Source: Anaerolineales bacterium (GTDB lineage Bacteria > Chloroflexota > Anaerolineae > Anaerolineales > UBA11579). From it: DNA of 64,000 bases. Positions 1 to 48,367 of this stretch are shown piece by piece. The stretch is taken from the NCBI GenBank assembly GCA_019637805.1, contig JAHBVB010000002.1, positions 62,001 to 126,000 on the forward strand, given 5' to 3'. A program made the position numbers and the translations under genes. Every line of letters begins with the position of its first letter. The stretch's first letter is position 1. The notes beneath the pieces are model-generated. The model was not told where the DNA came from. It saw only the letters and a list, made by a program, of their open reading frames with translations, and made no database searches.

Positions 1-1414
1 CCCGGGTTTCCTTCGATTTCTTGACTGAATTCAGGTTGATGCGCACGTTTAGTCCGGCGCCCTGCAGGCTGGCGGCCGCCAGTGCGCCGGCTGTGCCGGC
101 ATCGCTGAGCGTGTTGGTGTTGCCCAGGGCGGCGGACTGCTGCGCCAGGCGCAGGCAGTCGTGCGCCATGCGCGCCACCGCCAGCGGCTGGCGGGCCGCT
201 TCCAGTGTGGCCGCCTCGATCGCCGCTTCACGGCCGGGGGCGTCCTTGGCCAGCTTGAAGGCCGCCATCACTGCGTCAAAGGCGGCCGCATCTTCGCTGA
301 TCGCCCGGGTAAAGGCAGCCCGCAAGCCTTCAGCTTGCGCCAGCACTTCGTTCATTTGGGCTTCCACCGCGGCATATTTCTTCTTGCCGATTGTCAGCCG
401 CGCCACCATCGCCACCAAGGCCGCGGCCAGCGCGCCGGAATGCGCCGCGGCGGACCCGCCGCCGGGCGCCGGCGCCGCGCTGGCCAGCGCCTCGACGAAG
501 TCTTCGGCCGCCGGGGCGGCGGCCGACTGCATGCGCCGTTCCAGCACCTGCTGCGGGTCAAAGCCGTCCAGCTGCAGGTACCAGGCGGCCGCGTCTTCCA
601 TAGCTTGCTGCGGGATCAGGCCGACCAGTTCGGTCTTGACGATGCTGGCTCCGTAGCGGGCCGCCTCGCGGCGGATGGCTTCCACCACCCGCGCCAGCGG
701 CGTCTTTTTGTAATTGGTCAGGTTCATCGAGACCTGCGCCAGCCCATCCACCAGGAAGCCGGCGCCTTTGACGAAGCGAAAGCCGCCGGAGGAATGGCGC
801 ACGGCCTTGCCGATCGCCTTGGCCACTTCCACATCGCCGGTGTTCAAATACACGTTGTAGGCGATCAGCGGCTGGCGCGCCCCAATCGCCACTGCGCCGG
901 CCTTGCCCAGTGCATTGGGCCCATAGTCCGGCTTGCGGCTGGCCTTGCGGCCGATCTCGGCGCGGATGCCTTCGTACTCGCCGCGCCGCACGTTCTCCAG
1001 GTTGCGGCGACTGGCTTTGCTGGCGGCTTCTTCATATAAATACACCGGAATACCCAGTTCGTCGCCCACACGCTGGCCCACGCGCTGGGCCAGCTGCACG
1101 CACTCATCCATGCTGACCCCGGCGATGGGCACAAAAGGCACCACATCGGCAGCACCCATGCGCGGGTGCTCGCCCGTGTGCGTTTCCATATCGATCAGCT
1201 CGGCGGCCTTGGCGATGCTGCGCAAGGCCGCTTCTTCCACCGCCGCCGGCGGGCCGACGAAGGTCAGCACGCTGCGGTTGTGGTCCGCATCGGAGCTGCG
1301 GTCCAGCAGGGTTACGCCGTTCACCGAGGCAATCGCCTCGGCAATCGCATCCACCACTTCGGGACGGCGGCCTTCAGAAAAATTGGGGATACATTCGATA
1401 ATGGGGACTGTCAT
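1..1414 (-). CDS. ftcD: Glutamate formimidoyltransferase / formiminotetrahydrofolate cyclodeaminase, 3' end outside window
   Basis: The minus-strand frame runs from an ATG at 1414 to the left edge with no stop, giving 471 codons. The N-terminal half reads as the glutamate formiminotransferase family (start MTVPIIECIPNFSEGRR, then a stretch with the THTGEHPRMGAADVVPF motif). The C-terminal half reads as cyclodeaminase (APAPGGGSAAAHSGA, then GNTNTLSDAG). Bifunctional FtcD is usually about 540 residues, so only the last part is missing. In the family it transfers the formimino group from formiminoglutamate to tetrahydrofolate and then deaminates it to methenyl-THF, the last step of histidine degradation; it is cytosolic. 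It is divergent from the lipoprotein gene at 1524. A TATAAT box on the same strand ends 8 nt before the ATG. No other histidine-degradation gene is visible. Confidence 0.9.
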   Translation of the reverse strand, partial: MTVPIIECIPNFSEGRRPEVVDAIAEAIASVNGVTLLDRSSDADHNRSVLTFVGPPAAVEEAALRSIAKAAELIDMETHTGEHPRMGAADVVPFVPIAGVSMDECVQLAQRVGQRVGDELGIPVYLYEEAASKASRRNLENVRRGEYEGIRAEIGRKASRKPDYGPNALGKAGAVAIGARQPLIAYNVYLNTGDVEVAKAIGKAVRHSSGGFRFVKGAGFLVDGLAQVSMNLTNYKKTPLARVVEAIRREAARYGASIVKTELVGLIPQQAMEDAAAWYLQLDGFDPQQVLERRMQSAAAPAAEDFVEALASAAPAPGGGSAAAHSGALAAALVAMVARLTIGKKKYAAVEAQMNEVLAQAEGLRAAFTRAISEDAAAFDAVMAAFKLAKDAPGREAAIEAATLEAARQPLAVARMAHDCLRLAQQSAALGNTNTLSDAGTAGALAAASLQGAGLNVRINLNSVKKSKETR

Positions 1415-1422
1415 TGGGATTG

Positions 1423-1428
1423 ATTATA
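1423..1428 (-). promoter_or_regulatory. -10 box of ftcD, 8 nt before the ATG
   Basis: Read on the minus strand this is TATAAT followed by 8 nt and the ftcD start codon. No Shine-Dalgarno sequence lies between them, so the transcript probably has little or no leader. Confidence 0.5.
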
Positions 1429-1523
1429 TACCTTGGGCTTGCCAGCCGAAAATGGCAACTGCGCAAGGAATGGACTGGCAGCTTCCTTGCAACCTTTGTA
1501 TAAACAAAGCCCACCCTCGAACT

Positions 1524-3053
1524 ATGCGCAAACTCACTCCCATGCTCCTTGTAATGCTCGCCAGCCTGGCCTGCAATTTCCCCACCACCACCGTTGGCCC
1601 GCCCGCGGCGGCCAGCGTCCAGCCGCTGCTCTCCGCGGACCCGGCCAGCACGCCGCTGGGCGCGGCTGTGCCGCCGCCGACCCTGCCGCCCACCCGCGAC
1701 CCCAACCTGCCGCTGGCCTCGCCCACACCAGACAGCGCCCACGCGCTGCCTGCCGTGCGCAGCGAGTACAGCGAATATGTCGTGCAGCCCTATGATTTCC
1801 TCAGTGCCATCGCCCAGCGTTTCGGCGTCACGCTCGAGGCGCTGATCGCCGCCAACACTCTGGTCAACCCCAACGCTCTCGAAGTCGGCCAGGTGCTGCG
1901 CATTCCGCCCCAGGCCGCCGCCGGCAGCGGGCCGGACTTCAAGATCCTGCCTGATTCCGAGCTGGTCAACGGGCCTTACGCGCTCTTTTTCGATGTGAAT
2001 GCCTTCGTCCAAGGCCAGCCCGGGTTCTTGAAAAACTACCGCGAAGAATTGGATGCCCGCTTTTTCACTGGCGCGCAGATCGTACAGCGCGTCGCCAGCG
2101 AATATTCGGTCAATCCGAAATTGCTGCTGGCCGTGCTGGAATACCACAGCAGTTGGCTCAGCAATCCCAACCCGCCCACCGCCAGCTTGGACTTCCCCAT
2201 GGGCGTGGCCGACTCTTGGCGCAAGGGGCTCTACCGCCAGCTCTCCTGGGCGGCAGACCGCCTCAACCGCGGCTACTACTCGTGGAAGGCCGGTGAAGCC
2301 GCCGGTTGGACGCTCAAGGACGGGCTTTTCGTCCCCGCCGCGCCGGGCATCAACGCCGGCACGGCCGGCGTACAGGCCATGTTGGCCCCGCTGCATGAGG
2401 AAGGCGCCTGGAGGGCGGCTGCCTCGGAAGGTGGGCTGTTCGCCATCTATCAGCGCCTGTTTGGTTATCCTTTTGACTTGGCCATCGAGCCGCTGCTGCC
2501 CGCCGGGCTGGCCCAGCCCGTCCTGCAGCTGCCCTTCGAACCGGGCGTGCCCTGGGTCTTCAGCGGCGGCCCGCACGGCGGCTGGGGCGACGGCTCGGCC
2601 TGGGCCGCCTTGGACTTTGCGCCGCGCGGCGACATGCTCGGCTGCAACATCAGCCCCGACTGGGTGGTGGCCGCCGCCGATGGCCTTATCGTGCGCTCCG
2701 ACGACGGCGCCGTAGTCCAGGACCTGGACGGTGACGGCTACGAGCAAACCGGCTGGACCGTGCTCTACATGCACATAGCCGAACAAGGCCGCGTGCCGCT
2801 CGGCGCCTGGGTGCGCGCCGGAGAGCGCATCGGCCATCCCTCTTGCGAGGGCGGCATTTCCACCGCCACCCATCTGCACCTGGCCCGCCGCTATAATGGT
2901 GAGTGGATCCCGGCTGCGGGACGGCTGCCTTTTGTGCTGGACGGCTGGGTTTCGGTGAGCGACGGCGTGTTGTACAACGGCGTCATGCAGCGCGACGGTC
3001 GCTCTGTGGAAGCCTGTGAATGCCGTGACCCGGCCAATATGTTGCAACGTTAA
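1524..3053 (+). CDS. LysM lipoprotein with M23A (LasA-type) metallopeptidase domain, paralogue 1
   Basis: 509 residues. The reading frame is open further upstream, but the ATG at 1524 begins a lipoprotein signal (MRKLTPMLLVMLASLAC), so I start there. A proline/threonine-rich linker leads to a LysM domain at about residues 86-130. A central helical region (about 180-330) vaguely resembles lysozyme-like folds. The C-terminal peptidase domain has His351 in GPHGGW, Asp364 in LDFAP, a LYMH histidine, and HLH at 450-452. The 13-residue His-Asp spacing fits the LasA/beta-lytic M23A type rather than HxxxD LytM types. A DLDGDGYEQTGW loop precedes LYMH. M23 enzymes cut peptidoglycan cross-bridges; this one would act outside the membrane. 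The next paralogue follows after 2 nt, so the two are co-transcribed. Confidence 0.85.
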   Translation: MRKLTPMLLVMLASLACNFPTTTVGPPAAASVQPLLSADPASTPLGAAVPPPTLPPTRDPNLPLASPTPDSAHALPAVRSEYSEYVVQPYDFLSAIAQRFGVTLEALIAANTLVNPNALEVGQVLRIPPQAAAGSGPDFKILPDSELVNGPYALFFDVNAFVQGQPGFLKNYREELDARFFTGAQIVQRVASEYSVNPKLLLAVLEYHSSWLSNPNPPTASLDFPMGVADSWRKGLYRQLSWAADRLNRGYYSWKAGEAAGWTLKDGLFVPAAPGINAGTAGVQAMLAPLHEEGAWRAAASEGGLFAIYQRLFGYPFDLAIEPLLPAGLAQPVLQLPFEPGVPWVFSGGPHGGWGDGSAWAALDFAPRGDMLGCNISPDWVVAAADGLIVRSDDGAVVQDLDGDGYEQTGWTVLYMHIAEQGRVPLGAWVRAGERIGHPSCEGGISTATHLHLARRYNGEWIPAAGRLPFVLDGWVSVSDGVLYNGVMQRDGRSVEACECRDPANMLQR

Positions 3054-43063: not shown

Positions 43064-43765
43064 ATGCAAAACGCCCTCGTCCTGACCCGCCCACAACTCG
43101 CCGCCAAATTGCAATCCACCCTCATGCGTCCGGATGTGACCCGCCAGCAGGTGGCGGCCCATATTGAAGCCTGCGCCGAGCACAGCTTCCACGCCGCCAT
43201 GATCCCCATGGCCGACGTGCCCCTGGCCCGCGCCATTCTGCAGGGTACAAAGGTCAAAGTCGCCACGGCGATCTGCTTCGGCACCGGCTACGAGAGCGTG
43301 GCTGGCAAAGTGGCGCTTGTCCATGAGTGCCGCACCCTGGGCGCCGACGAGGTCGACTATGGCCCCAATATGTCGCTCTTCCTTTCGGGAGAGCTTGAGG
43401 CCTTTCGTGATGAAAGCGCCGCCCTGGTGGAGGCTGCCGGGGACATGACCCTTAAGGCCATGCTTGAATTGCATTTCATCGAAACCGACGACGAGCAAAA
43501 ACACGCCGCGCGGCTCTTGGAAGAGGCGGGCGTGCCTTGGATCAAGAATTCCAGTGGCGGCGGCCCACGCCCTGGGCAGGCCACACCCGCCGCCATCCAG
43601 CTGCTGCGGGCGGCGCTGAAACCTGAAACGCACATCAAAGCCTCAGGCGGCATCAAAAGCCACGCCGGCGCGCTGGAACTCATTCACGCCGGCGCGGAAC
43701 TGCTGGGCACCAGCGCCGCCCTTGCCATCCTCGAGGGGGTCGAGGCGGGTGATACGAGCTACTAA
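43064..43765 (+). CDS. deoC: Deoxyribose-phosphate aldolase-like protein
   Basis: 233 residues, ATG with AGGAG 10 nt upstream. It matches class I DeoC aldolases: the TIM-barrel VKVATAICFG, DEVDYGPNMSL, then the Schiff-base lysine in PWIKNSSGGG and HIKASGGIKSHAGALELIHAGAELLGTS. The catalytic region reads KNSSG where many members have KTSTG, so it is a divergent member and the symbol is tentative. It cleaves 2-deoxyribose-5-phosphate into acetaldehyde and glyceraldehyde-3-phosphate in nucleoside salvage. It stands alone, GC-rich again after the AT-rich segment. Confidence 0.85.
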   Translation: MQNALVLTRPQLAAKLQSTLMRPDVTRQQVAAHIEACAEHSFHAAMIPMADVPLARAILQGTKVKVATAICFGTGYESVAGKVALVHECRTLGADEVDYGPNMSLFLSGELEAFRDESAALVEAAGDMTLKAMLELHFIETDDEQKHAARLLEEAGVPWIKNSSGGGPRPGQATPAAIQLLRAALKPETHIKASGGIKSHAGALELIHAGAELLGTSAALAILEGVEAGDTSY

Positions 43766-43989
43766 GCTTCCCGACTTCCCACCTGTTGTCCTGCTCGGCG
43801 AAACTTACCAGCCTCATCCGGATAATAAGTCTGCAAGGGGCTATACAGCTTGTGCTGCTGCCACCGCTGCAGCGTCCACAGAACCCGTGAAAAAGGGTTC
43901 TGTTCGTGTGATGCCGGACATAGACGATAGAATGTAAGCACTACCACTCCCAGGAGCCATTATTTTCTGAAGAGAGGACACTAAACTCC
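43766..43989 (+). other. Intergenic region with one hairpin
   Basis: 224 bp. It holds an inverted repeat AGAACCC-8 nt-GGGTTCT near 43880 and a TAGAAT box near 43929, about 55 nt before the next start. No gene is evident. Confidence 0.5.
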
Positions 43990-45060
43990 ATGAACCGTCA
44001 CGATTTAGCTTTGCTACAGCAAATGCGTGGGTACCCGGCAGTCACCATCACTTTAAGCACCCATAGAACCTCCCCTGAGAACAAGCAGGATCCCATCCGC
44101 CTGAAGAATCTTCTCAATCAGGCCAGCGAAAGACTATTGTCCGAATTTTCCAAAAAAGAGGTCGCATCCTTATTAGACCGCCTAATTGCATTGGGCGAAG
44201 AAGTTGATTTTGTGAATGCCAAAGACGGCCTGGTGCTTTTTGCCAACCAGGATTTCGGACGCCTGGTGTATTTGCCCTTCAAACTTAAAGAACGCGTGGT
44301 TATTGACGAAACCTTCTTCACGCGAGATTTGGTCTTTGCTCTCAACCGCACGCCGCGCTATTGGGTTTTGGTGCTAAGTGAAAAGCCGACGCGTTTGTAT
44401 GAGGGCACCAAGCAAGATTTGCTTGAAATGAAAGAGAAAGGCTTTCCGCTTACGCATACTGGTCCAGGTGGCGAGGCCCCTCTGCCTGGGGGCTTCGGCA
44501 TAAGCCGGTCCGCCCATCGGGATGAACGTCATCGCCAGTTTTTCCGCCAGATAGATGCGGCTTTAAGCAAATTCATGGCAGATGATCCGCTCCCCTTGGC
44601 CGTAGTGGGGGTGGACCGCTTCCTGGCCTTCTTCAATGAAGTCAGTCAGCACAAGAATGCGGTGGTGGCCATACTCACCGGAAATCACGACAATACCGGC
44701 CCACATGAATTGGCTAAACTGGTCTGGCCGTTGGTGAAAGAAGGCCTGGCCGCTCAGCGCCAGCAAGTCTTTGAAGATTTGGAAAAAGCTATAGGTGAAC
44801 GCCGGGTAACTTCGACGATTGGGGAAGTGTGGCGAAAAGCTGCCGACGGCCGCGGACATTTGCTGCTTGTGGAAGAAGATTTTCATTATCCCGCAGTAGT
44901 CGATGAAACTGGTCGCCATCTGCAGGCGGCAGATGATCCCATTGCGCCCGGGGTAATTGATGATGCCGTTGATGATGTGATTGAAGAAGTACTGCGTAAA
45001 CAGGGCAGGTTGTCTTTGTGGATCCTGGCAGTCTGGGTGTTCACCAGCGGATTGCCATGA
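43990..45060 (+). CDS. baeRF3-type (bacterial archaeo-eukaryotic release factor-like) protein with 3' frameshift
   Basis: The annotated frame is 356 residues. It opens PAVTITLSTHRTSPENKQDP, and the body (RLIALGEEVDF, DGLVLFANQ, YWVLVLSEKPTRLYEG) fits the baeRF3 family related to eRF1/pelota and linked to ribosome hibernation or rescue. The last 20 residues of this frame look wrong (LWILAVWVFTSGLP). In the +1 frame the same DNA reads VVFVDPGSLGVHQRIAMILRY and a TAG at 45072-45074, the normal family ending. One base is therefore missing at about 45003-45008. RBS: GAGAGGA. The terminator follows at 45085. Confidence 0.8.
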   Translation: MNRHDLALLQQMRGYPAVTITLSTHRTSPENKQDPIRLKNLLNQASERLLSEFSKKEVASLLDRLIALGEEVDFVNAKDGLVLFANQDFGRLVYLPFKLKERVVIDETFFTRDLVFALNRTPRYWVLVLSEKPTRLYEGTKQDLLEMKEKGFPLTHTGPGGEAPLPGGFGISRSAHRDERHRQFFRQIDAALSKFMADDPLPLAVVGVDRFLAFFNEVSQHKNAVVAILTGNHDNTGPHELAKLVWPLVKEGLAAQRQQVFEDLEKAIGERRVTSTIGEVWRKAADGRGHLLLVEEDFHYPAVVDETGRHLQAADDPIAPGVIDDAVDDVIEEVLRKQGRLSLWILAVWVFTSGLP

Positions 45061-45084
45061 TATTAAGATACTAGCTCGATTTAA

Positions 45085-45117
45085 GAAAAAAGAATCCCCA
45101 CTGGGGGATTCTTTTTG
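45085..45117 (+). terminator. Bidirectional terminator
   Basis: AAAAAAGAATCCCC-ACT-GGGGGATTCTTTTT, between the baeRF3-type gene and the convergent DsbA-like gene. Confidence 0.9.
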
Positions 45118-45127
45118 ATTGCGGTGC

Positions 45128-45772
45128 TTAGGCTGAATGCACTTCTTCCCAGACCTGCTGCAGCGCCCGGTTGAAGGCCTCGGCCCCTTGTGCGCCGGAG
45201 ATGGCGTATTTGCCCTCAAAGATGAAGAAGGGCACGCCGTGAATGCCCAGCTGGGCCGCCCGGCTGATGTCGGCTTGCACTTCGGCAGCGTATTGGTCTG
45301 AGGCCAGCATGGCGCGGGTTTGCTCTGCGTCCAGGCCGGCTTCGCTGGCCAGCCTGACCAGCGTCTCCACATCCGCCGTGTTCTCGCCGTCCGTGAAATA
45401 GGCCTTGAACAGGCGTGGCAGCACAGCCTCCTGCTGGCCCTGGCTGGCGGCGAAGTGCACCAGGCGATGGGCGTCGAAGGTGTTTACTGGCTGGGCTTCT
45501 TTGTAATTCATGCTCAAGCCAGAGGCTTCAAAGGCCTTGGCCACTTGTTGGTTCATCGCCTCGGCCTGCTCCACGGGGATGCCGCGCTTGTTGGCCAGCA
45601 TTTCCACCACGCGCATATCGGTTTGGCGCGGGGCGTTGGGGTCCAGCTGGAAGCTGTGGTGGCTGATCTCCACACGCTCCCGGTGCTCAAACCCGGCCAA
45701 GGCTTCATTCAATTGGGTGGTGCCCAGGTAACAGAACGGGCAGCCAATGTCACTCCAAATGTCAATTTTCAT
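45128..45772 (-). CDS. DsbA-family (FrnE-like) oxidoreductase
   Basis: 214 residues. It begins MKIDIWSDIGCPFCYLG: the thioredoxin-like CPFC motif at 11-14 and no signal peptide. The helical insertion and the cis-Pro segment LGIHGVPFFIFEGKYAISGAQ match FrnE/2-hydroxychromene-isomerase-like cytosolic DsbA proteins. The family functions in disulfide exchange and oxidative-stress tolerance, and the FrnE branch takes its name from a polyketide pathway. The substrate here is unknown. It is on the minus strand, convergent with the baeRF3-type gene. Confidence 0.88.
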   Translation of the reverse strand: MKIDIWSDIGCPFCYLGTTQLNEALAGFEHRERVEISHHSFQLDPNAPRQTDMRVVEMLANKRGIPVEQAEAMNQQVAKAFEASGLSMNYKEAQPVNTFDAHRLVHFAASQGQQEAVLPRLFKAYFTDGENTADVETLVRLASEAGLDAEQTRAMLASDQYAAEVQADISRAAQLGIHGVPFFIFEGKYAISGAQGAEAFNRALQQVWEEVHSA

Positions 45773-47782: not shown

Positions 47783-48367
47783 CTAATAGCCCAACAAGTA
47801 GCCTGAATAGTAGGCCGTTTCGCGCAGCAGAAACCACAACTGAGTGGGGATTGAAGCATAGCGGCTGGTGGTGGTGGGCGAGGAGTAGGCCTCTATCCCT
47901 AGGTCGTCTGCCAGGGCCATGGCGCGCATCATGTGCATCGGGTCTGAGACGATCAGCGCGCTTTGCAGCCCCAGAGCCTGCATCAGGCGTTGTGCTTCGC
48001 TCAGGTTCTGCTGGGTATTGGTGGAGTTGGCCTCAATATACAGCGCTTCCAGCGGCAGCCCGGCTTGCAGGGCGTATTCACGAGCGGTTTCCGACTCAGA
48101 CAGCAGGTCATTGCGCCCGTAGCCGCCGGTGAAGATGATCGCATCCACCACGCCGTCCTGGAACAGGGCGATAGCGTGGTTAATGCGCTCGCGCAGCACG
48201 GGCGAAGGGCGGTCACGCCAGGCGGCCGCCCCCAGAACGATGGCGACATCGGCGGGGCGCGTCTCATCTTGCTGGGCAAAGCTGTAGATGCTGCTGGCTG
48301 CATACAGGCACCAGGCCAGCACGACAGCCAACCCGATGCGGGTCAGGCGAATGAGGAATTTGGTCAA
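47783..48367 (-). CDS. YdcF/SanA-type DUF218 protein
   Basis: 194 residues from a TTG at 48367 with AAAGGA upstream. One N-terminal membrane anchor, then the DUF218 core: VAIVLGAAAWRDRPSPVLRERINHAIALF, GGYGRNDLLSESE, EANSTNTQQNLSEA and IVSDPMHMMRAMALA. The family is linked to envelope integrity and vancomycin exclusion (SanA) and lies outside the membrane. It is 28 nt downstream of the alpha/beta-hydrolase lipoprotein gene in the same direction and likely co-transcribed with it. Confidence 0.85.
   Translation of the reverse strand: MTKFLIRLTRIGLAVVLAWCLYAASSIYSFAQQDETRPADVAIVLGAAAWRDRPSPVLRERINHAIALFQDGVVDAIIFTGGYGRNDLLSESETAREYALQAGLPLEALYIEANSTNTQQNLSEAQRLMQALGLQSALIVSDPMHMMRAMALADDLGIEAYSSPTTTSRYASIPTQLWFLLRETAYYSGYLLGY

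Follow-up and report, generated by a model that had tools for sequence, protein, structure and literature searches.

The window, a stretch of 64,000 nucleotides of Anaerolineales DNA, carries a gene which, by its sequence, encodes a ribosome-hibernation factor of the Balon type (baeRF family 3) and is homologous to the solved Balon. In the assembly this gene lacks one base near its 3′ end, which puts the last 21 amino acids in the wrong frame (Table 1). We think it probable (roughly 60%) that the base dropped out during sequencing or when the consensus was built, and prefer such an assembly error over a recent mutation. Whichever of the two applies, the frame break is an ordinary event.

Table 1. 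Coordinates of the gene, its frame break and its surroundings, numbered from the first letter of the window.
Feature	Position	Strand	Evidence
baeRF family 3 / Balon-type gene as assembled, 356 aa	43990..45060	+	ORF list, PF18845, PDB Balon match
Zone one base short versus relatives	45001..45009	+	Alignments to relatives
Out-of-frame family C-terminus, 21 codons and stop TAG at 45072-45074	45009..45074	+	
Likely intrinsic terminator, 13-pair stem and T run	45087..45116	+	Folding; terminator-like scan, core 45095-45107
Upstream neighbour, deoxyribose-phosphate aldolase-like	43064..43765	+	PDB 5dbu, E 3.3e-30
Downstream neighbour, opposite strand, DsbA-like	45128..45772	-	PF01323, E 3.3e-41

Frame 0, entered at 43990, runs to a stop at 45058-45060. 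Residues 1-340 of the 356-residue product are family sequence and the last ~16 are out of frame; its translation ends in ...KQGRLSLWILAVWVFTSGLP, or, in a longer view of the C-terminal end, ...GRLSLWILAVWVFTSGLP. The normal family end, VVFVDPGSLGVHQRIAMILRY followed by a stop, is encoded from 45009, one base back from frame 0, and the likely terminator sits 3′ of both stops. A sequence-only reading had described this family tail with its own stop at 45072-45074, as the translation from 45009 and the ends of homologues bear out, but had called the second frame +1, where it is in fact −1 (equal to +2). Scoring of the tails of three relatives along both strands of the window (127,874 frame positions) gave its best value, 84, at this stretch, the next best being 31 (mean −20, sd 9.6); chance is not a reasonable source of the out-of-frame tail. 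Frame-aware alignment of four intact loci (L003, L004, L005, L007) to the window turned up a single event in every case, the −1 step at this place, with no stop codons. The loss of a single base, proposed near 45003-45008, stands; its location can be resolved only to 45001-45009, because the relatives differ there and the step falls at 45005 or 45011 depending on the alignment.

Homologues were read to their stops at 32 loci, five from one relatives search and 27 from a class search of 396 genomes (matches kept at E ≤ 1e-60). At 31 of these loci a single frame carries the gene through to a terminal R[YF]; the 32nd, L209, shows no stop in its stretch, and its match goes no further than residue 277. 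In a second collection of 24 loci, L021 among them, every gene continues in frame into the family tail, with R[YF] at the end or one residue before it in 22; L042 and L043 close with ...VLR, and the locus of L038 ends before a stop is reached. Distant loci L008, L010, L011, L014, and L016 end otherwise than the close family (L010 in AALLSG), and none of these five has an ending like that of the window. Alignment with homologues had been named beforehand as the comparison that could overturn the frameshift, and the current-frame ending was found in none of the 32 loci (31 complete) or of the 24; nor did any locus of either set share the one-base shift.

The family named from the letters alone, baeRF3-type, was confirmed by a match to PF18845 (baeRF family 3) at 163.8 bits against a gathering cut-off of 31.5 (E 6.1e-48, profile positions 1-168 of 168), from which the gene departs solely by the frame break near its end. 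Balon of Psychrobacter urativorans (PDB 8rd8/8rdv/8rdw; PMC10901736) matches window protein residues 6-340 (8rd8 chain B, E 5.9e-41), differing in that its matching last 21 residues are not in frame in the assembled window sequence. The intact relative L021, which carries the same gene as L003, matches the same chain over residues 6-361, to the very last residue and with a similar ending (E 1.3e-43). Chain B of 8rd8 is named 'Methyl-accepting chemotaxis protein' in an entry for the P. urativorans ribosome with Balon and RaiA. The predicted model of L021 (mean pLDDT 87) resembles the three-domain fold of solved Balon with a Z of 24.7 and an rmsd of 8.8 over 346 aligned positions, values that describe the fold of the relative only. 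Neither GGQ nor NIKS occurs as a string in the 356-residue translation, an absence given as a Balon feature in the available text of PMC10901736. At a candidate site for the HP motif of the decoding-centre loop the window has THRTSPENKQDP and Balon THREHPANDQDP, with P kept and H lost (the motif residues are putative). Balon binds the ribosomal A site and touches EF-Tu via its C-terminal domain, according to the available text of the same article; by analogy, the intact protein would bind the A site as Balon does. The available part of PMC6514570 covers the baeRF-1 clade of bacterial archaeo-eukaryotic release factors.

The surroundings of the gene differ from those of Balon: the neighbours are aldolase-like (no Pfam match at 0.001) and DsbA-like, versus the stress genes or RaiA of the available text of PMC10901736. 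The hibernation factor HPF was rejected as an adjacent gene, its one match in the genome lying at C2:441768, ~335 kb from the Balon-type gene. No known RNA family was found in 43600-45400 at the gathering threshold. A search for a second intact baeRF family 3 copy returned none, with one match in the genome (five contigs, 95% complete).

Read in the restored frame, the tail retains the pattern of a coding sequence under selection. Mismatches at first, second, and third codon positions number 4/4/15 against G003 (22 codons), 5/5/12 against G005, and 5/6/15 against G036, and third positions exceed a one-third share with P values of 0.002, 0.03, and 0.009, respectively, in three comparisons that share the row of the window and hence are not independent. 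Over the 339 codons of the body, mismatches with G003 are 50/22/182. Residue identity in tail and body is 17/21 and 286/339 (G003), 14/21 and 255/339 (G005), and 13/21 and 232/339 (G036), the tail being slightly less similar than the body in all three comparisons, on few residues. In the body, the window has not gained residue changes faster than its sister G003: unique changes number 15 and 20, respectively, with G005 as outgroup (by codon position, 25, 9, 69 and 21, 9, 66) and 14 and 22 with G036. Further lesions or relaxed selection, as marks of a pseudogene, were not seen, with one frame event and no stop against four relatives; at the level of sequence, nothing points to decay of the gene. 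Under a simple Poisson model, which presupposes that a gene without its tail is under no constraint at all, an unconstrained last 15% of the branch has P 0.015 (second positions) or 0.038 (first plus second), and an unconstrained last 10% has P 0.07 or 0.16. If the gene was inactivated, the event probably falls in roughly the final 15% of its branch.

Frameshifts were also surveyed on the contig by placing genes of relatives on G000 C2:1-400000, and the reverse, with a third-codon-position filter and hand sorting. The filter was added since longest-ORF picking takes shadow ORFs, which made the first surveys noisy; the sorting was unblinded, genome identity being known to the sorter. Genes of G005 on this region (205 kept, 46 dropped as not coding-like) gave 9 raw shifts, of which C2:107005 (the Balon-type gene), 47794, and 396356 are clear and 319560 is doubtful. 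Site 396356 is close to the N-terminus, yet both its flanks are coding-like; C2:97646, 125152, 276041, 306818, and 382626 were discarded as N-terminal or with one flank not coding-like. Genes of G003 on G000 (44 kept, 20 dropped) gave 4 raw shifts, and only 47794 was retained; the Balon-type gene is missing from that list because a shadow ORF displaced it in the G003 set, and its shift does appear once the G003 gene is aligned directly. In the reverse direction, G000 genes on G005 (180 kept, 53 dropped) gave 8 raw shifts, none clear (nearest 1806095); on G003 (49 kept, 13 dropped) there were 6 raw shifts, of which one mirrors 47794. Break rates of 3/205 on the window contig and 0/180 on G005 do not differ significantly (Fisher P 0.25; 0.13 including the doubtful 319560), and the survey is therefore compatible with either cause.

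Two of these breaks lie outside the window. C2:47794 (L067:7794) splits a histidine kinase between HisKA and HATPase_c and is one base short versus G003 and G005, and C2:396356 (L084:16356) has one base more than G005 near a T run, where the conserved frame breaks. Within the window, a LysM ORF of 706 residues (933-3050) has a sub-threshold M23-peptidase match; the colinear G003 DNA requires a pair of one-base shifts in opposite directions, separated by 32 bases, and contains one stop, so one of the two records may contain a double slip.

We infer a technical origin for the base loss, favoured on general grounds and by the lack of decay. In their available text, PMC3711429 expects lone BLASTp-confirmed frameshifts to be sequencing errors and not genuine indels, PMC11017572 attributes many putative bacterial pseudogenes to assembly errors (metagenome assemblies being outside that study), and PMC8103633 gives indels as the most abundant nanopore error type. 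Like the singleton frameshifts of prokaryotic genomes treated in the available parts of PMC3711429 and PMC11017572, the present case is a lone one-base break with intact homologues, and no difference from them is visible here; the one-base slips at 47794 and 396356 also count in favour of assembly error. Against it stand the sequence around 45001-45009, which is no long homopolymer, a break rate not clearly higher than that of G005, and the enrichment of frameshifts at the 3′ ends of genes reported in the available text of PMC3711429. A genuine, very recent one-base deletion in the lineage or strain is a possible cause that we hold only tentatively. The gene is patchy, present in 3 of 11 genomes of the genus (2 of the 8 at least 90% complete) and, at class level, in 30 of 396 at E ≤ 1e-60, the window genome included. 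No match was found in 8 of the 11 (6 of the 8), so a real loss would be tolerable, and because absence is common in the group this explanation stays alive; Balon-deficient Psychrobacter arcticus strains grow, according to the available text of PMC10901736. Relaxed selection in the body and loss of the third-position bias in the tail, on the other hand, are not seen, and the Poisson model makes inactivation throughout the last 15% of the branch unlikely, while leaving room for 10%.

Model confidence at the end of the window protein also counts toward a real deletion. The assembled frame is without family residues 341-361, which are present out of frame, and its C-terminal domain, corresponding to the EF-Tu-contacting domain of Balon, is incomplete. 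In the L021 model the last two beta strands span 340-344 and 355-359; the frame is lost from residue 341, and 45009..45074 covers most of both strands. Mean pLDDT in the window model is 58 at 341-350 and 43 at 351-356, versus 88 at 341-350 and 93 at 351-360 in the intact relative. This drop is only suggestive, because the window model still has two strands here, at 340-344 and, a short one, at 349-351, the two alignments behind the models differ, and prediction programs are weak on changed ends. A product translated from the assembled sequence would be missing the final part of the C-terminal domain, its last two strands included; this is the domain that contacts EF-Tu in Balon.

Of the three causes listed in the sequence-only reading, assembly error and true mutation both stand as candidates, and programmed −1 ribosomal frameshifting, by which the 356-residue product and a family-length form would both be made, has become very unlikely, because no heptamer is present, no relative has the shift, and the hairpin is not kept. 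The mark of selection on the shifted-frame tail would suit such a mechanism, as would a stable hairpin 3′ of the site (45010-45075, −23 kcal/mol, z −2.63). This hairpin is missing in all four relatives folded (G003, G005, G036, and G033; z 0.36, 0.03, −0.08, and −1.73), the longer piece 44970-45075 of the window reaches a z of only −0.83, and the shift is absent from the 32 and 24 loci read. A scan of 44980-45060 confined to in-frame X XXY YYZ heptamers found none, with four half matches only; PRFect, in the available part of its description, has other motif types. A non-canonical −1 slip aided by the lineage-specific hairpin (~45022-45061) might make both ends, so that some of the organism's Balon, made without the C-terminal strands, would be unable to engage EF-Tu and hibernation would be tuned; we regard this as highly improbable. 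Equally hard to credit is that the frame-0 end is a true alternative C-terminus, selected for in the lineage: frame 0 is open, with its own stop and then a terminator-like hairpin, but no homologue read has such an ending and the third-position pattern tracks the other frame.

If the base was lost by assembly error, as we prefer, the living organism would make the normal 361-residue protein. In annotation, the gene is best called a hibernation factor of the Balon type and its frame break flagged; it should not be listed as a variant that has gained a new C-terminus. A real deletion would be an example of Balon damaged very recently, within a genus in which 8 of 11 genomes gave no match to the gene.
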